Both the position numbers and the translations under genes were made by a program. From assembly GCA_040757775.1 (NCBI GenBank), contig JBFLWQ010000017.1, positions 1-64,000 of the forward strand: DNA of 64,000 bases, read 5' to 3'. How positions within the stretch are numbered: position 1 is the stretch's first letter; every line of letters starts with the position of its first letter. Shown here one piece after another: positions 1,817-63,465 of the stretch. Source of the stretch: Thermodesulfobacteriota bacterium (lineage in GTDB: Bacteria > Desulfobacterota > UBA8473). The notes beneath the pieces were generated by a model, which saw only the letters and a program-made list of their open reading frames with translations, was not told where the DNA came from and searched no databases.

Positions 1817-3022
1817 TTAAAAACTGGGTTTTCTCCAATCAGTAATTGGCACAAACTGTACATTTTTCAAATCAACTTTAAAAAGCTTACATAAATCCAT
1901 TGGTTTATGACTTTTGGAAGTATATGTTATAAACCCAGTAAGACCATTTGTGTCAAAGTTCTTTATACTCTCAAGAGCATTCACAAAACTCTCAACATTC
2001 AGGTCATTGCCTGCCCTTTTCATAGCCTCTACATGCGTTACGGCAGTTACCCAACCATGGACATATTCTGATGATCTACCTTTTTTTTCAGGCTGATACC
2101 TTAATGTTACTTCTCTCAATTTGCCCATACCCGGACTTTTATCATCCCATGAACTAAAGCAATCGACGCTGATAAAATTTTCAGAGGCCTTTTTGGCTAT
2201 TTCTATCAAGTCTTTTGAACAGGTAAAACGAGTCCCAAAAAAATTGGTCTTAAAGTTGAATTTTCTAGCATCCCGAAGCAGTGCCGCTGCATTGTCTGCT
2301 ATGCCATGGATTATAACAAAGTCAGGTTCCACCCTCTTTAGGTTTAGAACTTGAGGAGTCGTATCCAAAACAGTAAGGGGACAAATTTCGACACCTGGGG
2401 GTTTGATGCCGTGAAATTTAGCTGACTCCCTGGCAGCCTTCAATCCAACGTGACCCATTTCACTGTCTGGACCTACGTAGACAATCTTCGGATCTTTTGC
2501 CTTCAGGTCCTTCATTATATAATCATAGATCAGCTTCACATTATCCTCATATGACGCTGCACTGCCAAAGACATACCTTTTGTATGGCTCGGTTATTATA
2601 TCGGATAGACTGCCTGGTGTGTATATGACCTTTTGCTTTTCAATCTGCCGGAAAAGAGCACTGGCTGACGCAGTAGCAACGCTTGCCCATATGCCCAATA
2701 CCCCATCCCTGAAAACAAGCTTTTTGAAAGCCGCTATAGATGAAGGTACTGAATAATGGTCGTCTTCTACAATCACATTAAACTTTCTTCCGTGAACCCC
2801 ACCCTGGTCATTCATGTGAAGCAGATAGTTTTTAAACCCCCACATATGGTCTGTTGATGGCCTCGCAGCTGGTCCAGACAGGTCACATATGATTCCATAA
2901 TTTATAGTATCCTTGCTTATACCTCTGACCTCCTTCGCGTATCCCACTGTGGTTGCAAAAAAGAATGAAACTGATACTAGAATAATCATGGCTAAAAACA
3001 CTTCTCTCATCTTCATAATCAA
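1817..3022 (-). CDS. LivK-type ABC transporter substrate-binding protein
   Basis: This 401-residue periplasmic binding protein belongs to the type I fold used by branched-chain amino acid and aromatic/carboxylic acid importers (Peripla_BP_6). Residues 1-29 are a Sec signal peptide ending in VGYA before KEVRG. The mature start EVRGISKDTI is shared by all the binding proteins in this window. Later family blocks include GGVHGRKFNVIVEDD and AAFKKLVFRD, and the protein ends in PITDWRKP. It is the first gene of a probable operon with the dehydrogenase and mutase genes downstream. No permease or ATPase gene is adjacent. The ligand cannot be read from sequence, but the neighbours suggest an organic acid. 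Confidence 0.88.
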   Translation of the reverse strand: MIMKMREVFLAMIILVSVSFFFATTVGYAKEVRGISKDTINYGIICDLSGPAARPSTDHMWGFKNYLLHMNDQGGVHGRKFNVIVEDDHYSVPSSIAAFKKLVFRDGVLGIWASVATASASALFRQIEKQKVIYTPGSLSDIITEPYKRYVFGSAASYEDNVKLIYDYIMKDLKAKDPKIVYVGPDSEMGHVGLKAARESAKFHGIKPPGVEICPLTVLDTTPQVLNLKRVEPDFVIIHGIADNAAALLRDARKFNFKTNFFGTRFTCSKDLIEIAKKASENFISVDCFSSWDDKSPGMGKLREVTLRYQPEKKGRSSEYVHGWVTAVTHVEAMKRAGNDLNVESFVNALESIKNFDTNGLTGFITYTSKSHKPMDLCKLFKVDLKNVQFVPITDWRKPSF

Positions 3023-30812: not shown

Positions 30813-31223
30813 ATGGCAGAAAACTTACCAGCGCCGCCGTCGCCGTTTCATTGGAGATTACAGCCGGAAACCTATCGTCTGATAGGTTCGAAATGTGCTG
30901 ACTGTGGTCACATTACCTATCCACGGAGAAAGATCTGTCCGATCTGTGGGAGCTTTAACAACAATGAGCATAAACTGAATAGAAGGGGGACTGTGCACAC
31001 ATACTGCATAAACTATGTCTTGCCTCCCCAGATTGAACCACCGGCAGCCCTTGCCATAGTCGATCTCGACGGTGGTGGAAGGTATCAGGGTTTGATTACC
31101 GATGTGAAAAGTCCGGAAGATGTCAAAATAGGAGCGAAGGTTGAACTGGTTTTCAGGAAGATACTAAGTGACAGGGGAGTGGATCTGTATGGATATAAAT
31201 TTAGATTAATGGAGGAGGGTTAA
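30813..31223 (+). CDS. DUF35 zinc-ribbon/OB-fold acyl-CoA-binding subunit
   Basis: This 136-residue protein has a rubredoxin-like zinc ribbon with C28, C31, C42 and C45 (KCADCG and ICPICG), then an OB fold from about residue 55 (GTVHTYCINYVLPPQ). DUF35 proteins hold the CoA substrate and bridge thiolase and synthase subunits, as in the archaeal acetoacetyl-CoA thiolase/HMG-CoA synthase complex, PhlB and BbsA. It starts behind GGAGG and is 1 bp from the thiolase gene, so a complex is likely. Confidence 0.9.
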   Translation: MAENLPAPPSPFHWRLQPETYRLIGSKCADCGHITYPRRKICPICGSFNNNEHKLNRRGTVHTYCINYVLPPQIEPPAALAIVDLDGGGRYQGLITDVKSPEDVKIGAKVELVFRKILSDRGVDLYGYKFRLMEEG

Positions 31224-31224
31224 G

Positions 31225-32412
31225 ATGAGCATCAGGGGAAAGGTTGCTATCGTAGGTGCCGGGATGATCCCGTTCGGGGAGTGGTATGATAAGAGCCTGG
31301 AAACCATGGCTCAGGAGGCATTTATTGATTGTATAAAGAGTGTAGATAAGGGAATCGATCCAAAAGAGATTAAAGCAGCCTGGCTGGCAAATTCTGGTAT
31401 ATCGCAATTTGGGGCTACTGCTTTTAGCGGTTCATGGCTCTCTTCTCAGATAGGTAATGCAGAGATACCGATTACCAGGGTTGAAAATGGTTGTCCGACA
31501 GGTTCCGATGCGGTGAGGCACGGAGCAATCGGGGTTGCTTCGGGTCTTTACGATGTTGTCCTGGTACTTGGGACAGAGAAGATGAGGGAGAAACCTGGTT
31601 CAGAGTCACTCATTGCAATCGGGTCCGCCGGCTTTGGGGGAAGCCCTGCATGGACATGGGGATCAACCGCTCCGGCGATGCAGGCTGTCTATGCTGTGAG
31701 GCAGATGCACGAGTTTGGGTGTACTATGGAGCAGTTTGCACGGGTTGCCGTGAAGAACCACCACAATGGGTCGTTAGATCCCCTTGCTCATTACAGATAT
31801 GAGGTTACCATAGAGGACGTATTGAAGAGTCCCATGGTTTGCTGGCCCCTGCATCTTCTGGACTGTTGTCCCCAGACGGATGGTGCGGCTGCGGTTGTTC
31901 TCTGCCGTTCTGATATTGCTACAAGATATACCGATAAACCGGTCTATATCCTCGGTACACATGTGGGTATGGATCATTCCTTTTACTGGGACAAACACAA
32001 TTTCACAGAGATGTTGGCTACGGTGAGAGCTGCCAGGGGGGCATTTGAAATGGCAGGGATAAAACCTGGGGATGTGGACTTCGCAGAGGTTCACGATTGT
32101 TTTACCAATACAGAGCTTATGAATATTGAAGACATAGGTTTTTGCAGGAAGGGTGAGGCTGGAAAATTAATGATGGAGGGATATTTTGATCTGAATGGGG
32201 AACTTCCCGTTCAGACTGCCGGTGGATTGAAGGCACACGGGCATCCGGTAGGGGCAACGGGCATTTCACAGGTATGTGAGTGTTACTGGCAGCTCCGGGA
32301 GGAAGTTGGAGAGAGGCAGGTAAAATTGAGAAACGGTATTGGTCTGCAACATAACGTCGGCGGTACGGGATTTGGTGTTTCTTGCATCAATATCCTGTCA
32401 CGAACACCGTAA
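31225..32412 (+). CDS. SCP-x-type thiolase
   Basis: This 395-residue thiolase-fold protein has nucleophile C90 in VENGCPTGSDA, H290 in EVHDCF and the GGLKAHGHPVGATG block with H340. The length and motifs fit the SCP-x/archaeal thiolase branch, not the FadA type. It may condense or cleave beta-ketoacyl-CoA, or acylate a carbon nucleophile as PhlC does. It is encoded between DUF35 and the inactive HMG-CoA-synthase-like protein, which argues for a three-subunit complex. Confidence 0.92.
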   Translation: MSIRGKVAIVGAGMIPFGEWYDKSLETMAQEAFIDCIKSVDKGIDPKEIKAAWLANSGISQFGATAFSGSWLSSQIGNAEIPITRVENGCPTGSDAVRHGAIGVASGLYDVVLVLGTEKMREKPGSESLIAIGSAGFGGSPAWTWGSTAPAMQAVYAVRQMHEFGCTMEQFARVAVKNHHNGSLDPLAHYRYEVTIEDVLKSPMVCWPLHLLDCCPQTDGAAAVVLCRSDIATRYTDKPVYILGTHVGMDHSFYWDKHNFTEMLATVRAARGAFEMAGIKPGDVDFAEVHDCFTNTELMNIEDIGFCRKGEAGKLMMEGYFDLNGELPVQTAGGLKAHGHPVGATGISQVCECYWQLREEVGERQVKLRNGIGLQHNVGGTGFGVSCINILSRTP

Positions 32413-32434
32413 ATATTGAGAAGGAGGTCAACCG

Positions 32435-33460
32435 ATGGTTGGTATTTTAGGATATGGTGTGTATATTCCCAGATATAGGCTCAAAAAGGAGGAACCGGTC
32501 AAGGTATGGGGTGGAGGAGAGAAAGGGGAAAAATCAGTATGCGGAACGGATGAAGACGTTGTAACTATGGCCGTCGAGGCGGCAGATAAGGCCATCAAAC
32601 ATAGCGGAATCCAGCCGTCAGAGATAGGTTCCATACACATAGGAACCAGTTCTTCTCCGTATATAGAGAAGTACCTCTCCACAATCATTGCGGAAATATT
32701 CGAATTGGACACCAAGGCGTCGATGGTTGACTATTCCGGTTCTCTCAATGCGGGTGCAGCAGCGTTGCTGGGTTGTATGGACGCAATAAATGCAAAGAGA
32801 ATCGGTTACGGGCTGGTAATTGGAGCGGAAAATAGGGCAGCAGCCCCGGGTTCAGAAGGGGAAGTGAGTTTTGGTGCGGGTGCAGTGGCGCTCGTGGTCG
32901 GCAAAGATGGAGCTATATGCTGCATTGAAGACGTAAATAGTTACTTCACGGTGATTACAGACAGATGGCGCGCTGTATCTGATTCACATGTGTCGGATTA
33001 TTTTGATAACAGGTTTGGCAGGGAACAGGGATACGAAAAACATACACTGGAGGCAGCTAGCGGACTTCTTAAGAAGTTGGGCAAGAAGAGCGGTGACTAC
33101 AGTTATATGATTTTCCAGCAACCCGACCCGAAATTACCGGCATCAGTGGCGAAAAAATTGGGGGCAACAAAGGAACAGACAGCCTTAGGCATGATTTATC
33201 CATTCTTTGGCGATTTAGGTTCATGCTCAATCTTTGCTGGTCTGGCTGCAGTACTGGGAAAAGCGAAGGCACGAGAGCGCATACTGCTGGTCTCTTACGG
33301 TTCTGGTATCAGCAGTGCCATTAGTATTCTCGTTGATGGTGAAATAGAGAGGAAGAGGGATAAAGCCTTTCCCATAGAACAGTACGTAGAAAAGAAGGAG
33401 TATATTGACTACGCCACATACCTGAAGATGACACAGGCGATAAAGAGGGCTTCTTATTGA
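32435..33460 (+). CDS. HMG-CoA synthase-like protein lacking catalytic residues
   Basis: This 341-residue thiolase-superfamily protein aligns along its length with archaeal HMG-CoA synthases (start VGILGYGVYIPRYRL, IGTSSSPYIEKYLSTIIAE, FQQPDPKLPASVAKKLGA). The catalytic Glu of GSES is S72, the nucleophilic Cys position is L104 (S103 next to it), and the His of FHQP is Q228. It is thus probably not a synthase but a structural or acyl-handling partner of the thiolase. Such loss is consistent with ketosynthase-like subunits of PhlACB-type complexes. It follows the thiolase gene by 22 bp. Confidence 0.85.
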   Translation: MVGILGYGVYIPRYRLKKEEPVKVWGGGEKGEKSVCGTDEDVVTMAVEAADKAIKHSGIQPSEIGSIHIGTSSSPYIEKYLSTIIAEIFELDTKASMVDYSGSLNAGAAALLGCMDAINAKRIGYGLVIGAENRAAAPGSEGEVSFGAGAVALVVGKDGAICCIEDVNSYFTVITDRWRAVSDSHVSDYFDNRFGREQGYEKHTLEAASGLLKKLGKKSGDYSYMIFQQPDPKLPASVAKKLGATKEQTALGMIYPFFGDLGSCSIFAGLAAVLGKAKARERILLVSYGSGISSAISILVDGEIERKRDKAFPIEQYVEKKEYIDYATYLKMTQAIKRASY

Positions 33461-33523
33461 TGACGGTCTTTCTGAATGTATTTTCCCATAAACACAGTCT
33501 CTGTTAAACAGGGGGGAGGTAAT

Positions 33524-34735
33524 ATGATGAAGGTAATTTTCAAATTGCTTTCCAGCATCTGTGTAGCAATTATATGTTTATTGGCATTGACCAGAACAGA
33601 GGGATATGCTGGGGAAACAAGAGGTGTAACCGATGATACATTAAAGATCGGGGTAATTTTGGATCAAACCGGCCCCGCTGCAAATGTCACCGTGCCCATG
33701 ACAGACGCTATAAAAAGGGTTTTCAGATATGCCGATGAACAGGGTGGAATTCATGGCAGGAAGGTAAAGGTTATAGTTGAAGACGACAGGTATGCAGTCC
33801 CCATGGCAATAGCTGCCTTCAAAAAACTGCTTTACAGGGATAATATATTAGCATTAATTGGTCCAAGTTCATCGACAGCAACCTTGAGTCTCCTTCGACA
33901 TATGGAAAAAGAGAAGCTCCCCACTATGCCGATACCGCCTCAGGAGCGATGCGTCTTGCCTCTAAAAAGATACGTCTTTGGTGTCTATGAAATCTATCAA
34001 AACACGATGAGGACGCTCGTCGATTACATGGTAAAAAACCTTGACACTACAGCCCCCAGGATAGCTTTAGTCTATCCTGATAATGAGACAGGGAAACTGG
34101 ACCTCGATCCTGCAATTGAGAGACTGAAATTCCATAAACTGACTCCCGTAACAAAAGAGATATTAAACCCTGGTTCTCTTGATGCCACATCCCAGGTAAT
34201 GAGTATAAAAAGAGAAAAAGTAAACAATATTATATTGTGTGGCTTTATCCCCCAACCTGCCGGTTTATTGCTCCGGGAATTGAAAAAGTTCGGCATGAAC
34301 GTGCCTGTCTTTGCGAATGTGGCAGCAGCATCTGAGGAGGTCATACATATGGCTGCCGTGGGAGCAGAAAAATACTATGTAATATCTATCTGGGCATCGT
34401 GGTATGATGAGGGTGAGGGTATAGCCCTTATGAGGAAGGTAACACTCAAATATGCGCCTGGTACAGAAAAACCATATCGGGGAAAAATCCACACAGGCGC
34501 CTGGATATGGGCAACAGTCTTGAAAGAGGGGCTTTTAAGGGCAGGCAGAGATATAGATGGAGAGCGGTTGGTAACGGCTCTTGAGACACTGAAAGATTTT
34601 GATATGAAGGGGCTCTGTGGTCCTATAAATTTTAATTCTACCAATCATAAAGGAATGAGTTCAGGGCAAATCTCTAAGGCTGACCCGGCAAGCGGGAAGT
34701 TCATCCCTGTAACTGGATGGATAAAAACCGACTAA
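33524..34735 (+). CDS. LivK-type ABC transporter substrate-binding protein
   Basis: The start is put at ATG 33524, directly after GGGGGGAGGT, giving 403 residues with a signal peptide of about 30 (ending YAGET). The mature protein starts TRGVTDDTLKIGVILDQTGP and carries GGIHGRKVKVIVEDDRY and ends PVTGWIKTD, as in its paralogs. It lies between the HMG-CoA-synthase-like gene and an acyl-CoA dehydrogenase gene, so its ligand may feed that pathway. No ABC permease is nearby. Confidence 0.9.
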   Translation: MMKVIFKLLSSICVAIICLLALTRTEGYAGETRGVTDDTLKIGVILDQTGPAANVTVPMTDAIKRVFRYADEQGGIHGRKVKVIVEDDRYAVPMAIAAFKKLLYRDNILALIGPSSSTATLSLLRHMEKEKLPTMPIPPQERCVLPLKRYVFGVYEIYQNTMRTLVDYMVKNLDTTAPRIALVYPDNETGKLDLDPAIERLKFHKLTPVTKEILNPGSLDATSQVMSIKREKVNNIILCGFIPQPAGLLLRELKKFGMNVPVFANVAAASEEVIHMAAVGAEKYYVISIWASWYDEGEGIALMRKVTLKYAPGTEKPYRGKIHTGAWIWATVLKEGLLRAGRDIDGERLVTALETLKDFDMKGLCGPINFNSTNHKGMSSGQISKADPASGKFIPVTGWIKTD

Positions 34736-34918
34736 CTTGGTATTCAATTTTTTATGGTTTCGAATTTAGAAGCATCTTAATAGGTATGGACCAAACCCCC
34801 ATGAGTTCCACAGATCAGAGTGATGTGATCAGGGCACTTTGGGAGGGGTTTTGTGCTGGCGTTAACATAGTTTCAAACTCACTAAGAGGTCGTGAATCAA
34901 GAGAGGGAGGTAACGAGC

Positions 34919-36082
34919 ATGAGAGGCAATGATATCTTTTATTCAGGAGAAGAGATTAAGTTCAGGGCTGAGGTGAAGGAATATGCGGCTGCTGAGATTC
35001 TACCTCTGTCAAACGATTTTGATGAAGGCACTATAAAAATCAGGGAGATTGTTAAAAAGCTGGGAGAAAAAGGTTACATGGGTGTATCCATGCCAAAAGA
35101 GTATGGCGGTCAGGGTAAGAGTGTAGTATTTGAGATGATCCTGTGTGAAGAGCTGGGCGCCATAAATTATGGGGTAGCCGCTGTCCACATTGCATCATCC
35201 CTCTTTCTCGGGTATCCTCTCGTTCGTTTTGGCACTGAGGAGCAAAAAAAGAAATACTTAGTCCCGATTACAACAGGACAAAGGGTTTCAGGCATGGGTA
35301 TGACAGAACCTACGGCCGGGTCTGATGTGGCAGGGACAAAGACTGAAGCTGTTTTAGAGGGAGACTTTTATATACTAAAGGGGGAAAAACGCTTTATTGG
35401 CTGTGGCAGCGAAGCGGATTTCCTTCTTACCTTCGCAATTACAGACCCATCTGTGCATGCGCATAAAGGAATGACTGCGTTTATTGCGGAGACTTCAGAT
35501 CCGGGTTTTGAACTGGTGAAAGTCTTTGATCTTTTGGGCTGGGTGGGCGTTGGTGTTTCCCATCTAAGATACAACAATCTCAAAGTTCCCAGAGATAACA
35601 TTCTGGGCAAACTCAATCATGGCTTTATAGTTGCCGGTTATGAGCTTGATGCAGAGAGGGTAGCAGCTGCCGCAGCGGGTATCGGAATGGCAAGGGCTGC
35701 TTTTGAGATAGCAGTCAAATATTCCTCTGAGAGAAAGCAGTTTGATGTTCCTATTAGGACATTTGAGGGAGTTAATTTCAAGGTTGCTGACATGGCTATA
35801 GGTTTGGAGGCTATGTCGCTCCTGAACCTTAAGGTAGCGAGGATGATAGAAGAAGGGGTTACGGCCTCTAAAGAATCAGCTATTTCTAAGTTGTTTGCAG
35901 CGGAAGGAACTTTTAGTGTTGTAAACGATGCATTGCAGATTATGGGGGGTATCGGTTTGACAAAAGAGTATCCCATAGAAAAGTTTTTCAGAGATGCCAG
36001 GGCTTTGTCAATAGCGGGGGGGACAAACGAGATTTTGAAATATCTCATACAGAGGGAAGTTTATAAGGAGTTCGGACTTTAA
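34919..36082 (+). CDS. Acyl-CoA dehydrogenase
   Basis: The start is ATG 34919 after GAGGGAGG, giving 387 residues. It oxidises an acyl-CoA at C2-C3, passing electrons to ETF. Family blocks are GMGMTEPTAGSD, YSSERKQFDVPI and the C-terminal GGTNEILKYLIQREV. At the MCAD base position (YEGT) it has AGGT, and it has a Glu in LDAERV, the position used by LCAD and IVD enzymes, so it should be active. It ends the acyl-CoA cluster. Substrate unknown. Confidence 0.92.
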   Translation: MRGNDIFYSGEEIKFRAEVKEYAAAEILPLSNDFDEGTIKIREIVKKLGEKGYMGVSMPKEYGGQGKSVVFEMILCEELGAINYGVAAVHIASSLFLGYPLVRFGTEEQKKKYLVPITTGQRVSGMGMTEPTAGSDVAGTKTEAVLEGDFYILKGEKRFIGCGSEADFLLTFAITDPSVHAHKGMTAFIAETSDPGFELVKVFDLLGWVGVGVSHLRYNNLKVPRDNILGKLNHGFIVAGYELDAERVAAAAAGIGMARAAFEIAVKYSSERKQFDVPIRTFEGVNFKVADMAIGLEAMSLLNLKVARMIEEGVTASKESAISKLFAAEGTFSVVNDALQIMGGIGLTKEYPIEKFFRDARALSIAGGTNEILKYLIQREVYKEFGL

Positions 36083-36380: not shown

Positions 36381-36411
36381 AAGCCATGGGTAAAAACTCA
36401 TGGCTTTTTTA
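36381..36411 (+). terminator. Tandem terminator 2 of DAHP synthase leader
   Basis: AAGCCATG (36381-36388) pairs with CATGGCTT (36399-36406) over a 10-nt loop, followed by a T-run. It nearly matches the second hairpin in the trp leader. Confidence 0.78.
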
Positions 36412-54703: not shown

Positions 54704-55909
54704 TTACTCTGGCTTTCTCCAGTCTGTCATAGGGATGAACTTCCCAGCTGCAGGGTCTGCCTTGTATATCCTCCATGAATCCCCACCTTTATGGCTTTGT
54801 GAACTATAAGTGATAGGAGCACAGAGCCCACCGGTATTATAATTCTTCATACTCTCAAGGGAATCTACTAGAGTTTCTGCGTCGAGATTCTTGCCGGCCC
54901 TCTTCATCCCCTCTACCATAACAGTCGTCATGACCCATGCGTGGGTGTGTACTGTTCCACGATATGGTTTTTCTGTTCCAGGGTGATATTTAAGCGTGAT
55001 TTTTCTCATCTCTTCAACGCCAGTACCTTTACCATACCAGGGAGACGTGGCATGAACAGAGTAGAATTGGTTTGCTGCTTCACCGATTGCGTTTAGTTCC
55101 TCTCCAAGCATTGCCCCAAAACTGGCAAATACTGGTATATTCAATCCGAACTTCTTTAATTCCCTGAGTAATGTGATTGTTGTTGGGGTAATAGTTCCAA
55201 TATGAAGCACGCAATTAGCATTGTACCTCCTGATGCTCATTACTTGAGTGCTGGCATCCACTGCGGTAGGATTTAGTATCTCCTTTGTTACAGGTGTTAT
55301 ATTGTATTTTTTAAACCTCTCTGCTGCAGCCACGGAGTCTATCTTACCAACTTCACTGTCAGGATAAACCAGAGCAACCTTTTGTTCCTTCAGTTTGAAG
55401 TCCTTGAGCATATAATCGGTAATGGCATTCACCTGGCCAGGATAGGTGTCAGTGATGATAAATATATACTTCTTATAAGGGTTAACGGCGACTTCAGGTA
55501 TTGCAAAGGGGATATTAGGTAACTTATCCTTTTCAATATTCTTCCACATGGCATTGACCTGGTTTGCAGACCCTGGCCCAAGCAGGGCAAATATCTCGTC
55601 TCTGTAAACCAGCTTCTTAAGAGCGGCAATAGCAGGTGGGATCGAGTAACGGTCGTCTTCTACAATTAAATTCAACCGTCTTCCATTGACACCGCCACTA
55701 TCGTTAATATGCCTGATATATATCCTCATTGCCTCGAGCCCCACAGTACCAAGACTTGCTGCAGGACCTGTTATAGGAAAACACACCCCTATTGTTATCG
55801 ACTTATCCGTTACTCCCCTGACTTCTTTTGCGTGGCTCAAAGTGCCGTAAATCAAAAAAATACTCACCAACAATCCAGCTACCAACAATACATCCTTTCT
55901 CAACTTCAT
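54704..55909 (-). CDS. LivK-type ABC transporter substrate-binding protein
   Basis: I start at ATG 55909, behind AAAGGAGATTTAGT, giving 401 residues; an in-frame ATG at 55972 would add 21 residues without signal-peptide character. Signal peptide about 1-27 (ending SHAKE), mature start EVRGVTDKSITIGV. It has GGVNGRRLNLIVEDDRYSIPP and ends PMTDWRKPE. It is closest in window to the 57497-58696 paralog (shared WKHIEK/WKNIEK, NPTAVDASTQVMSI-type blocks). No transport partner genes are nearby. Confidence 0.9.
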   Translation of the reverse strand: MKLRKDVLLVAGLLVSIFLIYGTLSHAKEVRGVTDKSITIGVCFPITGPAASLGTVGLEAMRIYIRHINDSGGVNGRRLNLIVEDDRYSIPPAIAALKKLVYRDEIFALLGPGSANQVNAMWKNIEKDKLPNIPFAIPEVAVNPYKKYIFIITDTYPGQVNAITDYMLKDFKLKEQKVALVYPDSEVGKIDSVAAAERFKKYNITPVTKEILNPTAVDASTQVMSIRRYNANCVLHIGTITPTTITLLRELKKFGLNIPVFASFGAMLGEELNAIGEAANQFYSVHATSPWYGKGTGVEEMRKITLKYHPGTEKPYRGTVHTHAWVMTTVMVEGMKRAGKNLDAETLVDSLESMKNYNTGGLCAPITYSSQSHKGGDSWRIYKADPAAGKFIPMTDWRKPE

Positions 55910-56019
55910 ACTAAATCTCCTTTCTTTGTTGTCACCTTCAAGGAATGGGGAAAAACCCCCACTTTTACTCAAAGACTTTAGCTTTTTATCCTGTTATCTC
56001 TTGTTCGGCAATCCATATA

Positions 56020-56163: not shown

Positions 56164-57360
56164 TTAATCTTTCTCTTTAGGCTCCCTCCATCCTGTAAGA
56201 GGAACCAGCAACCCTTTCTCCACATCAGATTTGAAAAATCTGCATTGTTTTCCACCTATATGGTCACCTTTCTTAAAGGTGATTGGAGGACAAAGACCTT
56301 TTGTATCAAAATCCCTGAAGCCCTCCAGAGACTCCACCATCGTATCGTAATTCAGTTCTTTCCCTGCCCTTTTCATAGCCTCTGTATAGATCATTGCATT
56401 AATCCAGCCCTCAGTATAAAATTTATTTCGCATCCCTTTACCCGGCTGGTATTTTTCAGCAATCTCCCTTAACGTGGTCATCCCACGACCTTCATCATAC
56501 CAGGAATTAATATAATGAACCCCTATGAATTTCTCCGCTGCCTTACCCGCCAATTTCACGATTTCCTCGAAAGAAGCAGCATATCCCCCGAGAAAAGCAG
56601 GGTCAAATGAATACTTCCTTGCCTCCCTCAACAACACCACGGTAGTTCCGATCTCCTGATGGGCTATTACATTCTTGAGTTTATTTTTCTTTAACTTAAG
56701 AATCTGAGAGGTAGCATCGAGGGCACCCGGGTTTAGTACCTCATTATATATTTGGATGTCATACAACTTGGCCTGTTCTCTGGCTGCGGAAAGGCCATTT
56801 CTGCCGTAGTCATTGTCAAAGGTAGTAAAACCGATCCTCGATCCCTTTCCCTTTAAGTCATTGGCTATGTAGTCGACGGTTGTTCTAATCCCATCCTCAT
56901 AAGGGAGCGCCATAACGAAGATATATTTCTTCTCCTTCCACATTCTGGATATGCTCAGGGTTATAACCGGAACTTTCAATTTATCAATCTGTGCTGATAA
57001 GGCTACTGTTTGCGGGGTTCCTGCGGGCCCGAGAAGAGCCAGTACCCTATCCCTGTACAGGAGTTTTTTGAAGGCTGCCATAGCTACGGGAATAGAATAG
57101 CGGTCATCTTCAACAATTAATTTTACTTTTCTTCCATTAATTCCACCCTGCTCATTTACGTACCGGAAGTAATTTCTTGCCGCTTCAAGGTAGGGTATAG
57201 TGTTTACAGCAATAGGGCCTGTAAGATCAACTATTACCCCAAGTTCAATAGTGTCGTCTGTTACCCCTCTTGCTTCTTTAGCATAAGTAAATTTGCCTGA
57301 AGACAATAAAACCGTTAAACTTAAAACAAATCCGATTATAAAAAAATTCTTGGCATTCAT
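56164..57360 (-). CDS. LivK-type ABC transporter substrate-binding protein
   Basis: This 398-residue protein has a signal peptide ending about residue 27 (TYAKE) and mature start EARGVTDDTIELGV. Family blocks GGINGRKVKLIVEDD and AAFKKLLYRDRVLALLG are present; it ends PLTGWREPKEKD. It is more distant from the two paralogs on each side than they are from each other. It was probably fused next to the 3' relic by recombination. Confidence 0.9.
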   Translation of the reverse strand: MNAKNFFIIGFVLSLTVLLSSGKFTYAKEARGVTDDTIELGVIVDLTGPIAVNTIPYLEAARNYFRYVNEQGGINGRKVKLIVEDDRYSIPVAMAAFKKLLYRDRVLALLGPAGTPQTVALSAQIDKLKVPVITLSISRMWKEKKYIFVMALPYEDGIRTTVDYIANDLKGKGSRIGFTTFDNDYGRNGLSAAREQAKLYDIQIYNEVLNPGALDATSQILKLKKNKLKNVIAHQEIGTTVVLLREARKYSFDPAFLGGYAASFEEIVKLAGKAAEKFIGVHYINSWYDEGRGMTTLREIAEKYQPGKGMRNKFYTEGWINAMIYTEAMKRAGKELNYDTMVESLEGFRDFDTKGLCPPITFKKGDHIGGKQCRFFKSDVEKGLLVPLTGWREPKEKD

Positions 57361-57496: not shown

Positions 57497-58696
57497 TTAA
57501 TCAACAGCCTTCCAGCCGGTCAGAGCGGTCCATTTTCGGCTGATGGGGTCGGCCTTGTATATCTTCCATGAGTTTCCACCTTTATGGCTGGTAGAACTAT
57601 AGGTGATAGGACCACAGAGTCCACCAGTATCATAGTTTTTGATGCCCTCAAGGGCACTTATCAGAGCTTCTTCGTCCAGATTCTTCCCGGCCCTCTTGAG
57701 ACCCTCTACCAGCATGTTAATACAGATCCATGTGTGTGTGTACATGCTACCCCTAGGGGTTTTCCCCGTTCCCGGGTGATACTGGAGTGTTATTTTTCTC
57801 ATGGTTTCTACACCATGCCCTTCACCGTCCCACTGAGATGTGGCATGGACAGAGTAGAATTGGTTTGCTGCTTCACCAATTAGGTTTATATCCTCCGCAA
57901 TCATCGCCCCCCAACTGCCGAAGACCGGTATCTTTAATCCATACTTCCTTAAATCCTTGAGCAGGGGAACTGTTGTTGTCGGAATGGTTCCGACATGGAC
58001 TACGGCATTTGCCTGGTACCTTTTTATGTTCATTACCTGCGAGCTCGCATCAATAGCCCCCGGATTCAGTACTTCTTTCGTTACAGGCGTTAAATTGTAT
58101 TTCTTGAGCCTCTCTATTGTAGGTACAAGGTCAATCTTCCCTGTCTCAGTGTCAGGATATACTACTGCAATCATGGGATCCTTCAGTTTGAAGTCTTTTA
58201 TCATATAGTCGACAAGAAGCTTCACCTGTCCCGGATAGATATCCATGACGCCAAATATGTACCTCTTTGCCGGGCTAAAAGCTACCTCAGGCATTACAAT
58301 CGACATGGTCGGTAGCTTTTCTTTCTCGATGTGCTTCCACAAAACGTTAAGGCAACTGGCAGATCCGGGTCCTATCATAGTAAAAACCTTATCTCTATAT
58401 ACCAGCTTTTTAAGAGCCGCAAGGGCAGGTGGGATTGAATAACGGTCATCCTCTATACATAGGTCCAACTGCCTGCCATTGACACCACCGTGATCGTTGA
58501 TATACCTGACATAAGTCCTTGCCGCCTCAGTTACCTGGACACCAAGATTTGCTGTGGGGCCTGTTATACCAAAAATAATACCTATCTTTATTGCCCTGTT
58601 TGTTACCCCTCGTACTTCAGCATTAACAGGTTGTGCACAGAATAGAGTCAAAACTGTAAACAAAGCTACAACCACCACAAGAATATTTTTCATCAT
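57497..58696 (-). CDS. LivK-type ABC transporter substrate-binding protein
   Basis: This 399-residue protein starts at either of two adjacent ATGs after GGAGGAGG. Signal peptide about 1-26 (PVNAEV), mature start EVRGVTNRAIKIGI. Blocks GGVNGRQLDLCIEDDRYSIPP and AALKKLVYRDKVFTMIG are shared with the 54704-55909 protein. It ends ALTGWKAVD. Its 3' end is duplicated at 56097-56162. Confidence 0.9.
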   Translation of the reverse strand: MMKNILVVVVALFTVLTLFCAQPVNAEVRGVTNRAIKIGIIFGITGPTANLGVQVTEAARTYVRYINDHGGVNGRQLDLCIEDDRYSIPPALAALKKLVYRDKVFTMIGPGSASCLNVLWKHIEKEKLPTMSIVMPEVAFSPAKRYIFGVMDIYPGQVKLLVDYMIKDFKLKDPMIAVVYPDTETGKIDLVPTIERLKKYNLTPVTKEVLNPGAIDASSQVMNIKRYQANAVVHVGTIPTTTVPLLKDLRKYGLKIPVFGSWGAMIAEDINLIGEAANQFYSVHATSQWDGEGHGVETMRKITLQYHPGTGKTPRGSMYTHTWICINMLVEGLKRAGKNLDEEALISALEGIKNYDTGGLCGPITYSSTSHKGGNSWKIYKADPISRKWTALTGWKAVD

Positions 58697-58922: not shown

Positions 58923-60442
58923 TCACCGCATGTATTCCGGGAGTATTTTCAGGCAATCTTTACCTGTCACCGCTGAGGCGCAAATAACTGCGCCATGTGC
59001 CGCACCACTGGTGCCCACATCCCATTGACTAACGGTATCACCGGTAAAGAACAGGTTTTTAATATATGGATGCTTGACGCCCGGCCTTCTGTCACCCACC
59101 TGGCCGGGAATGGAGCTACAGCCATACAGGGATTCAACGGCCGTAGTAATATACCACTCAAGAATTTCATCAAACCGTGGCCACTGTTTTCGTATAAAAT
59201 CAAGTTGTGCCTTGTTCGCCTTTTGCATAAGCTCTTTATTGTGAATTTCATCAGGGTTTTTTGTCTTAATGCACATATATGTCTGAGTAAGACATCCTTT
59301 GCCTTTAATTATTCTCGTTGGATCAACTTCGCTGATTTGCTCGAAGCCCCAGGGGGGATTTCCGCCATCTAACTCAATTCCCGGCAAACGACTTATAAGA
59401 TAAATGCCCTTGGGCCATTTCTTCTCAAGCGGCTCACTGGCCTTTATACTCATCAGGATACCCCCCACGGATTCATAATTCTTAATTCTTCCAACAAGTT
59501 CCGTCGGGAAATAATTTTCCGGAATTATACTGAATACCTGATTCATCTGAAGATTGGATACTACGTTCTTTGCATCTATCTTTCTTTCTTTTCCGTTTTC
59601 CTTTACCAAAACACCTGTGGCATTGTAATTTTTAATGATAACTTCTTTGACTTTTGCCTTCGTAATTATTTCCCCACCATTCTCCTTGATAATATCAGCA
59701 AACACACGGGCAACAAGTTTCGTTCCACCTCTCACATCGCCCATACCGCCGCCATGCGAAAGATGCCTGCCGGTTGCACTCGTCATGTTATTTCAAAGGA
59801 TCCAATCGCCTGCTGATATTTTGCTCTCGTCATTAATGCACATCTGCCATCGTGCCAATGTCGTGTAAAAGTCTATAACCCTTTTGTCATCCGTCATGCT
59901 GCTAAGATAATCTTTTAGACTCACATGAAAATATTCAAAAGCCTCACTGCGGGAAAGCGTAGCTCTTTCCGCAGCAATTTTGTTACGTTCCAGATGCGAT
60001 TCTTTTGGCCAATCTTTAAAATAGTCCTGAAACTCGATCCATTCTCCATCACGCCAAAAAAGGAAGCCAATTGGATTATCAAGGGGAAGCCTTTTACCCA
60101 GCGCTCTGGCTACCAATGCATATCTGCAACGATCGCCTGCCGACGTGCCATGCCATCCCCCTTCTACGATGTAGTCCCTGAAAATACCATTTTCAATGAG
60201 CTCGAAAGAGCTGGCTGCGAATCTATGACCCAAGTTCCCATAGCCCCGTAGAGAAGGCACCGGTATTCCTTTTCGGAGTAGTCTCCATAAGGACCTCCGA
60301 AAGTCATAATTCGTCCTCCTATTTCACTTTCTTTCTCGAGGATCAACACCTTCATTCCTTCCTGCTTTGCTAAGATAGCACCGGTTATCAAGCCGCCCAT
60401 CCCTGCTCCTATGATTACCGTATCATAGAGATTGTCTTTCAT
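58923..60442 (-). pseudogene. FAD-dependent oxidoreductase (phytoene-desaturase-like), broken
   Basis: Read as one gene of about 505 residues, it starts NLYDTVIIGAGMGGLITGAILAK (FAD Rossmann motif GxGxxG), then EKESEIGGRIM, and ends with NLFFTGDTVSQWDVGTSGAAHGAV. Two lesions break it. Near 60247 a frame change separates residues 1-64 from RGYGNLGHRF onward. At 59793-59795 an in-frame TGA follows GDWIL, and two codons later MTSATGRHLSHGG continues. Family members oxidise or saturate isoprenoid or acyl chains, and are often near acyl-CoA genes. A sequencing error could explain the frame change but less easily the TGA. Confidence 0.85.
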
Positions 60443-60621: not shown

Positions 60622-61830
60622 TTATTTTTTTGACGCTTTTATCCATCCTGAAACAGGAACCATCACTTTCTTTTTCACATCTGCCCTGAATATCCTGCAG
60701 GCTTCGGCCGGTTTGTGGTTTGTAGGACTCAAACTTAAAGGAGCACCTATTCCACCCAAATCCAGGTTTCTTGTTGATTCAAGGGCACTCATAAAGCTCT
60801 CTCTACTGAGGTTCCTTCCTGCTCTTTTGAGAGCGTCCTCTACCATCATAGAAATTACCCAGCCATCGGTAAAGATTCTATCAGTAGCATCATAACCGGG
60901 ATAATACCTGCCTGTAATCTTCCTTGCTTTGATCATTCCCGGGGCATTATCAAACCACGATACATAGGCATGAACTCCCAGGAGTCCCTCAGCAAGATCG
61001 CCAGCAGCCTGCAAGGTAGTTTCCGCACATGCATAATAATGACCGAAAAGTTGAGGCTTGTAGTTATATTTGACTGCATCCTTGAGAAAAGCAATTGCCC
61101 CTGCTGCAATTTGAACCAGGATTACATGCGTAGCCCCAGCCCTCTGCAAATTAAGCACCTGGGATGAAGCATCTATGGCGCCAAAGTTTAGAACCTCTTT
61201 ACGCGCCAGCTCCAAACCATGCAGCTTAATCTGGGCAGCCGCTGCCTCCGTAACCCACTTACCATAGGCATTATCAGGGTATACAATGCCTATTTTAGGA
61301 TCTTTTGCCCCTGTATCTTTAACGATGTAGTCAACCAGAGCCCTCGCCATATCCTCATAAGAAGGGCCTCCGGTGAATATGTATCTCTTTAATGGTGTAG
61401 TCATTGTTTCGGCCTTGCTTACAATAATACAAGGCAATTTACTCTTTTCTATCATTTGGAACATCGCAAATGTCTGTCCTGTCCCTCCCATTGTGAGACC
61501 TGCAAATATATTATCTTTAAAAACAAGTTTCTTAAATGCAGCAATGCATCTTGGAATCGCGTAACCATCATCTTCTTTCAGGAAGTTAATCTTTCTTCCA
61601 TTCACTCCACCTCTTTCATTGAGATCTTTAAAATAGGCTTCCATTGCATTATTGTAATGCATCGTAGAGTCGACGACAGGACCTGTGTACGCAAATATGT
61701 GTCCGATTTTTATTGAATTATCGGTTACCCCTGTCGTATCAGCAGCATGTATGACACGACTTCCAAAAAATCCCCACAATAAAACCGAGGCTGTGATTGC
61801 TAAAGATAAAAATATAATTTTCCCTTTCAT
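60622..61830 (-). CDS. LivK-type ABC transporter substrate-binding protein
   Basis: This 402-residue protein has a signal peptide to about residue 30 (VIHAAD) and mature start TTGVTDNSIKIGHI. It has GGVNGRKINFLKEDDGYAIPR and AAFKKLVFKDNIFAGLTM, and ends PVSGWIKASKK. It is upstream of the broken FAD oxidoreductase gene. A promoter with an operator-like palindrome lies at 61993-62038. Confidence 0.9.
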   Translation of the reverse strand: MKGKIIFLSLAITASVLLWGFFGSRVIHAADTTGVTDNSIKIGHIFAYTGPVVDSTMHYNNAMEAYFKDLNERGGVNGRKINFLKEDDGYAIPRCIAAFKKLVFKDNIFAGLTMGGTGQTFAMFQMIEKSKLPCIIVSKAETMTTPLKRYIFTGGPSYEDMARALVDYIVKDTGAKDPKIGIVYPDNAYGKWVTEAAAAQIKLHGLELARKEVLNFGAIDASSQVLNLQRAGATHVILVQIAAGAIAFLKDAVKYNYKPQLFGHYYACAETTLQAAGDLAEGLLGVHAYVSWFDNAPGMIKARKITGRYYPGYDATDRIFTDGWVISMMVEDALKRAGRNLSRESFMSALESTRNLDLGGIGAPLSLSPTNHKPAEACRIFRADVKKKVMVPVSGWIKASKK

Positions 61831-62646: not shown

Positions 62647-63465
62647 TTATGCAATTGCTATTCTCTTTTTTATGTCCTCAACCACAATACTAGCACTTTC
62701 GGCACAACCCTCTGCCATGACGTAGCCCCGAGGTTTTACCCCATCACCAACATTATAAAGGTTCTTTACCGGTGTTTTCTGAGAAACGTCATACCCTTGC
62801 TGTGCATAATTAACAGGCCAACCGCTGCGATAACTTTGTACAGTTAAAAGCTCACCGTGCTTGTCAATCCCAGGGAATTTCTCTTTGGCCTCTCCTATTG
62901 CAACTTTAATATCTTCCTCCAAATTGTCGCTTCGGACAGCTGCCCAGCACCATAAGCAATTCTTATCTTCAGGAGCATAATCAGGCCAGGTTATACTAGG
63001 ATCCATTGCGCAGAAGAGCAACTCGTTCTCAGGAAAATTGAGACAGACTGGAGACTTGATAAGTGGTTTATCGGAACCAAAGAAGAAAGATATACCACGA
63101 GTAGGTATAGCACGCTGTTTGACTTCCTTTAAATACCCCTTGTCAAAATTCTGCTCTCCTGCCAGCATAACTGTTTGCATCGGTCCAATATTACTAACTA
63201 CAGCATCACAGGTGATCTCTAGCGTTTTTTCTTTCCTTTCAGCAATCACACCCTTAACGGTTCCCTCTTCAACTATAATTTGTTTAACACAGGCTGAGGT
63301 CAGAACTGTACCACGTTTTTCTTGAATCACTTCCGCAAGGGCATCTATAACAGCCCTAAGGTGACCTTCTGGATAACAGTAAGAACCGCCAAACTTACCA
63401 AAGCTCCGGAGAACTCTAACAAATTCTCCAGCCGGAACTTCATATGTCCAGAGTTTTTTCTTCAA
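62647..63465 (-). CDS. FAD-dependent oxidoreductase, N-terminally truncated
   Basis: This 272-residue frame begins at a TTG (63465) with KKKLWTYEVPAGEFVRVLRS and continues through GGSYCYPEGHLRAVIDALAEVI and VVSNIGPMQTV, to NLYNVGDGVKPRGYVMAEGCAESA. That is the C-terminal half of the same family as 58923-60442; the first about 200 residues with the FAD motif are missing. A TAG lies just upstream in frame. It is probably a non-functional remnant. Confidence 0.8.
   Translation of the reverse strand: MKKKLWTYEVPAGEFVRVLRSFGKFGGSYCYPEGHLRAVIDALAEVIQEKRGTVLTSACVKQIIVEEGTVKGVIAERKEKTLEITCDAVVSNIGPMQTVMLAGEQNFDKGYLKEVKQRAIPTRGISFFFGSDKPLIKSPVCLNFPENELLFCAMDPSITWPDYAPEDKNCLWCWAAVRSDNLEEDIKVAIGEAKEKFPGIDKHGELLTVQSYRSGWPVNYAQQGYDVSQKTPVKNLYNVGDGVKPRGYVMAEGCAESASIVVEDIKKRIAIA

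Follow-up and report, generated by a model that had tools for sequence, protein, structure and literature searches.

Organization of the locus

The window, that is, the whole stretch of DNA analyzed here, comprises 64,000 nucleotides from a Thermodesulfobacteriota bacterium. It carries three contiguous genes coding for a DUF35 protein, a SCP2-type thiolase and a protein resembling HMG-CoA synthase (HMGS), followed by the genes of a substrate-binding protein and an acyl-CoA dehydrogenase (Table 1). A check of the open reading frames bore out the layout described in an earlier note on this DNA. Both neighbors are present and the genes of the trio are intact and arranged end to end, with gaps of 1 bp (DUF35/thiolase) and 22 bp (thiolase/HMGS-like). 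All three starts are preceded by good ribosome-binding sites and the trp genes upstream of the trio have the opposite orientation. Given the terminator-like hairpin detected after the dehydrogenase gene, it is likely that the trio, the binding protein and the dehydrogenase constitute a five-gene unit. The binding protein and the dehydrogenase are the only such companions, and no ligase, hydratase or hydroxyacyl dehydrogenase was found at the trio locus.

Table 1. Features at the trio locus (positions within the window).
Feature	Position	Strand	Basis
DUF35 protein, zinc ribbon Cys28-x2-Cys31-x10-Cys42-x2-Cys45 plus OB fold; counterpart of PhlB, BbsA and archaeal DUF35	30813..31223	+	Pfam PF12172/PF01796
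SCP2-type thiolase, catalytic subunit; Cys90, His290-Asp-Cys292 (HDCF) and His340 (GHP) present	31225..32412	+	Domain and motif reading
Silent HMG-CoA-synthase-like subunit, Ser72/Leu104/Gln228 at the catalytic positions; counterpart of PhlA	32435..33460	+	Alignment, model, tree
Peripla_BP_6 (branched-chain amino-acid type) substrate-binding protein, 15 bp 3' of the trio	33476..34735	+	ORF and domain search
Acyl-CoA dehydrogenase, 156 bp 3' of the binding-protein gene	34892..36082	+	ORF and domain search
Terminator-like hairpin, 11 pairs, T-rich tail, 3' of the dehydrogenase gene	36381..36406	+	Consensus match only

The earlier note had proposed a role in degradation from these two neighbors. 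The role is probably catabolic (see below), and of the two neighbors the binding protein is weak evidence because the 3.1-Mb genome codes for about 75 paralogues, mostly without adjoining permease genes; we have therefore set it aside as a clue to the substrate. The window alone holds six copies, the one in Table 1 and those at 1817-3022, 54704-55972, 56164-57360, 57497-58696 and 60622-61830. No permease gene was found near the copy beside the trio, and no trio was seen near its closest paralogues in the regions examined. A truncated copy with 86% identity to it is located elsewhere in the genome (G000:C20:18720-19397). Amid the binding-protein genes of the window, frames similar to FAD amine oxidase or phytoene desaturase (58923-60260 and 62647-63465) appear by eye to be fragmented.

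The thiolase and DUF35 subunits

The thiolase (Thiolase_C_1, E 4.9e-42) contains all the motifs of SCP2-type CoA thiolases, NGC90PTG, VH290DC292F and GH340P. The catalytic residues Cys90 (TGT), His290 (CAC) and His340 (CAT) are thus retained, as the earlier reading had it, and Cys292 (TGT) is present too. The same Cys/His/His set is kept by the thiolase in all 28 trios with a silent HMGS-like subunit (see below) in which the adjacent thiolase could be read, the window included. The steroid aldolases Ltp2-ChsH2 and Sal-Shy (6OK1, 9MYR) also combine a thiolase fold with DUF35, but their retroaldol cleavage uses Tyr or Tyr/Cys, a set that is absent from the window thiolase. Where the Cys and the first His would be expected, two aldolase-like thiolase homologues, both outside the silent trios, show Gly/Tyr, as in the steroid aldolases.

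The DUF35 protein contains the domains zf-ChsH2 (E 6e-11) and OB_ChsH2_C (E 6e-14), and its PDB matches are 6esq_E, 9skh_E, 5m3k_B and 9vbo_H. The association of a SCP2-type thiolase with a DUF35 partner is also found in the benzoylsuccinyl-CoA thiolase BbsAB (7PXP), an enzyme of anaerobic catabolism that is not known to have a HMGS-like subunit. The window proteins are far from reaching the equivalog cut-offs of BbsA (41 of 250 bits) and BbsB (176 of 750 bits).

A HMG-CoA-synthase-like subunit without catalytic residues

The best PDB sequence match for all three subunits was 6ESQ, the acetoacetyl-CoA thiolase/DUF35/HMGCS complex of the archaeon Methanothermococcus thermolithotrophicus, which is made of the same three protein types. 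When the HMGS-like protein was aligned with the HMGCS of this archaeon, Ser72 (AGT), Leu104 (CTC) and Gln228 (CAG) fell on the catalytic Glu82, Cys114 and His238, and the loss of the three residues that had been reported could be corroborated. An AlphaFold2 model of the protein (pLDDT 92.6) had 6esq_I as its best structural match (TM 0.95, 1.4 A), followed by PhlA and MucABC chains. The earlier note had also considered that another Cys/His pair might occupy the modelled active site. None is conserved in the alignment with the archaeal enzyme and the relatives; the sole Cys or His near the former Asn loop in the sequence, Cys264, is Gly in the archaeal enzyme and variable among relatives. With the residues lost, the fold confidently predicted and Cys264 unconserved, the observation of a silent subunit stands.

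Automatic annotation would likely assign this trio to a true HMG-CoA synthase complex of the mevalonate pathway, since the protein passes the cut-off of PRK04262 (E 1.1e-96, 324 bits versus 244), although it stays under that of TIGR00748 (E 1e-81). We have rejected this assignment, which has a negligible probability in our judgement. Besides the disappearance of Glu, Cys and His, the genome carries ispG (E 2e-157), and HMG-CoA reductase (PF00368) had no match in it while the control genomes were positive, indicating that its HMGS-like proteins do not serve isoprenoid synthesis through mevalonate. Furthermore, the live archaeal HMGS form a group separate from the silent ones in the tree described in the next section. 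The archaeal complex has an active HMGS subunit within the mevalonate pathway, whereas the window has a silent one in a genome that follows the MEP route. The database name HMG-CoA synthase would introduce a mevalonate step into genomes without the pathway.

All-or-none loss of the HMGS active site

We have aligned 95 homologues besides the window protein to find out how the catalytic positions vary. The triad behaves as all-or-none: Glu, Cys and His are found together in 31, all archaeal HMG-CoA synthases, and the remaining 64 (PhlA and one MucABC chain among them) have none of the three, without a single intermediate. A survey of the Ser/Leu/Gln triad had been suggested, and this exact combination turned out to be exclusive to the window. 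The residues at the silent positions vary, Thr/Leu/Tyr being the commonest, and what the silent homologues have in common is that Glu, Cys and His are all missing.

With another HMGS type and FabH as the root, the tree gathered all the silent rows, PhlA and the window included, in one clade (96/98), within which PhlA and a Priestia sequence were sister to the others. A single loss of the HMGS active site is favored but not proven, given the weak root branch (75/74) and the length of some rows. An earlier unrooted tree placed PhlA beside the live group, showing that its position is uncertain.

The acyltransferase PhlACB (PpATase, 5M3K; CsATase, 9SKH) and MucABC (9VBO) resemble the window trio in having a thiolase-type catalytic subunit, a DUF35 linker and a silent HMGS-like subunit that lacks the same residues; PhlA has Cys83, Gly115 and a Gln at the three positions. 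The data support the type of complex proposed in the earlier note, similar to the archaeal one and to PhlACB. Its view of the silent subunit as a departure from PhlACB does not hold, because Glu, Cys and His are missing from PhlA too, and PhlA belongs to the same clade. PhlA is known to be devoid of the key Cys and Glu, acyl transfer uses residues of PhlC only, and activity requires the joint expression of all three subunits (PMC6392133).

These data also bear on whether the HMGS-like subunit is truly silent, or might catalyze another reaction, or hold a second site for CoA esters (regulatory or relay), through other residues. The fold is complete and the model confident, and 11 alignment columns do not vary among 44 relatives, some of them live, indicating that the protein is under constraint. 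However, the three catalytic positions vary freely among residues unable to substitute for the original ones, no conserved Cys or His moves in, and PhlA, a member of this clade, is not involved in acyl transfer. A subunit active in this way appears to us quite improbable.

The reverse situation was found in archaea. Among 29 loci with a live HMGS and a readable thiolase (one of them readable in part), seven have a silent thiolase (L094, L145, L153-L156 and L158), with Gly, Thr or Ser replacing the Cys and mostly Asp replacing the His of GHP. No locus among those examined had both sides silent. At the sequence level, this pattern fits with a complex whose halves depend on each other for structure and in which either of the active sites may be lost. 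It might be, although we put this forward only tentatively and as somewhat doubtful, that a two-site enzyme was silenced on either side, never both in this sample, and that the silent subunit was kept to complete a shared CoA/acyl pocket. If this were true, the silent subunit would allow a small acetoacetyl-CoA thiolase to serve, in bacteria and archaea, as a platform on which bulky substrates are handled.

Distribution of the family

The trio had been presented as a candidate new complex on its own. That claim had to be abandoned, as it is one of six in the genome and one member of a family spread across many bacteria and archaea. The same genome codes for five further silent HMGS-like proteins, each with a C-terminal DUF35 fusion and an adjoining live thiolase gene, and for two thiolase-DUF35 pairs without HMGS. 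Among 395 genomes of the phylum, 185 gave matches at 0.001 and, among the matches listed, about 109 did at 1e-20 or better. These relatives are mostly HMGS-DUF35 fusions of 470-500 amino acids. Some HMGS-DUF35 open frames (L121, L122) reach 800-930 amino acids, either by extra fused domains or by being merely long frames. Weaker relatives are found on proteobacterial and haloarchaeal plasmids (Novosphingobium, Variovorax, Azoarcus, Natrialba and others). Unfused silent trios appeared in Thermoplasmatota and, within the phylum, in one genome (L123).

That most relatives are natural fusions implies that the HMGS and DUF35 parts work together. One of the fused trios in the same genome, L010, contains both the sister of the window thiolase (SH-aLRT 99) and, as a fused domain, the nearest relative of the window DUF35 (114 bits). 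With the nearest thiolase and HMGS-like relatives located in fused trios, the division into separate genes, here arranged as DUF35-thiolase-HMGS, is probably secondary. Seven related genomes, including one that is 98% complete, gave no orthologue of the trio, and no close orthologue appeared in viral contigs or in a non-exhaustive scan of 84,980 species with short exact patterns.

The window trio can hence be placed, as an unfused case, in a widespread and apparently catabolic branch of thiolase/DUF35/silent-HMGS systems. Among the open-licence papers searched we found neither a description of this branch nor an activity measured for one of its members. Silent HMGS-like partners, so far known from a few natural-product enzymes, are an old and widespread part of apparently catabolic thiolases, especially in the phylum of the window, often with several copies per genome. 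The coexistence of natural fusions and splits provides material for testing what the silent subunit does for the thiolase.

Metabolic context and probable function

We have examined the neighborhoods of 20 trio loci of the phylum (10-15 kb per locus) for genes of ACAD, ECH, SDR, 3HCDH, MaoC, CoA ligase and CoA transferase types. As a raw count, 14 had at least one such beta-oxidation-type gene, and at the other six none was found with the seeds used. The neighbors of the paralogues in the same genome are CoA transferases, CoA ligases, dehydrogenases, MaoC/SDR pairs, B12 mutases or a branched-chain-type permease; L010 in particular is surrounded by a CoA transferase, a CoA ligase, a permease and a dehydrogenase. 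On the plasmids we found the orders ACAD-SDR-fusion-thiolase-ECH, SDR-MaoC-fusion-thiolase-ACAD-CoA-transferase and thiolase-fusion-3HCDH-ACAD-TRAP.

This context has to be weighed against a PhlACB-like function, i.e., a C-acyltransferase that would acylate aromatic or enol acceptors on carbon, either with CoA or without it. PpATase does not need CoA and its CoA-binding residues are missing (PMC6392133). The three-subunit make-up and the silent subunit are the same in the window, PhlA falls within the same silent clade, and the unfused relatives beside NRPS genes (Priestia plasmid, MucABC) are biosynthetic. On the other hand, the archaeal thiolase (6esq_A, E 3e-75) matches the window thiolase better than PhlC does (E 2e-27). 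The sister trios are accompanied by CoA ligases, CoA transferases, dehydrogenases and transporters, without polyketide synthase or NRPS genes, and a Thermofilum homologue (PhlC 30% identical) gave no formylation. PhlACB and MucABC make natural products by C-acetylation, while the window trio has an acyl-CoA dehydrogenase gene nearby and clusters with trios whose surroundings are catabolic. We therefore regard a C-acyltransferase as unlikely here.

The trio is probably a catabolic, CoA-dependent thiolase complex in which the chemistry takes place in the thiolase only, the HMGS-like and DUF35 proteins acting as a scaffold and perhaps as walls of the pocket. PhlACB, with PhlC as its only catalytic subunit, is a precedent, and in a relative the C88S change in the catalytic subunit abolished activity (PMC12955522). 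By analogy with the archaeal complex and PhlACB, the three proteins would assemble in the same way, with DUF35 holding the thiolase and the HMGS-like protein together. Cys90 of the thiolase would attack the ketone of a 3-oxoacyl-CoA to form an acyl-enzyme, from which a second CoA would release the shortened acyl-CoA. The HMGS-like subunit would have a structural role without chemistry, and by forming part of the wall of the CoA/acyl pocket it may make room for a bulky or branched acyl chain. The direction of thiolysis is what we infer, the sequence by itself being compatible with condensation as well. The adjoining acyl-CoA dehydrogenase would supply an earlier step of beta-oxidation. It contains a Glu in the motif ELDAERVAAA and a Gly in IAGGTNEI, a placement of the catalytic base that we take to be of the isovaleryl- or long-chain-acyl-CoA dehydrogenase type, and a branched-chain substrate would suit it.

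Three of the trio paralogues (L011, L012 and L108) cluster with methylmalonyl-CoA-mutase-type genes, B12-binding subunits and several acyl-CoA dehydrogenases, clusters that recall the acetone and branched-acid mutase pathways of sulfate reducers. In acetone-degrading sulfate reducers an acetone-induced DUF35 protein and a thiolase are clustered with a B12 mutase (PMC8084838). The parallel is suggestive, and bears on the L011 and L012 paralogues beside mutase genes rather than on the window locus.
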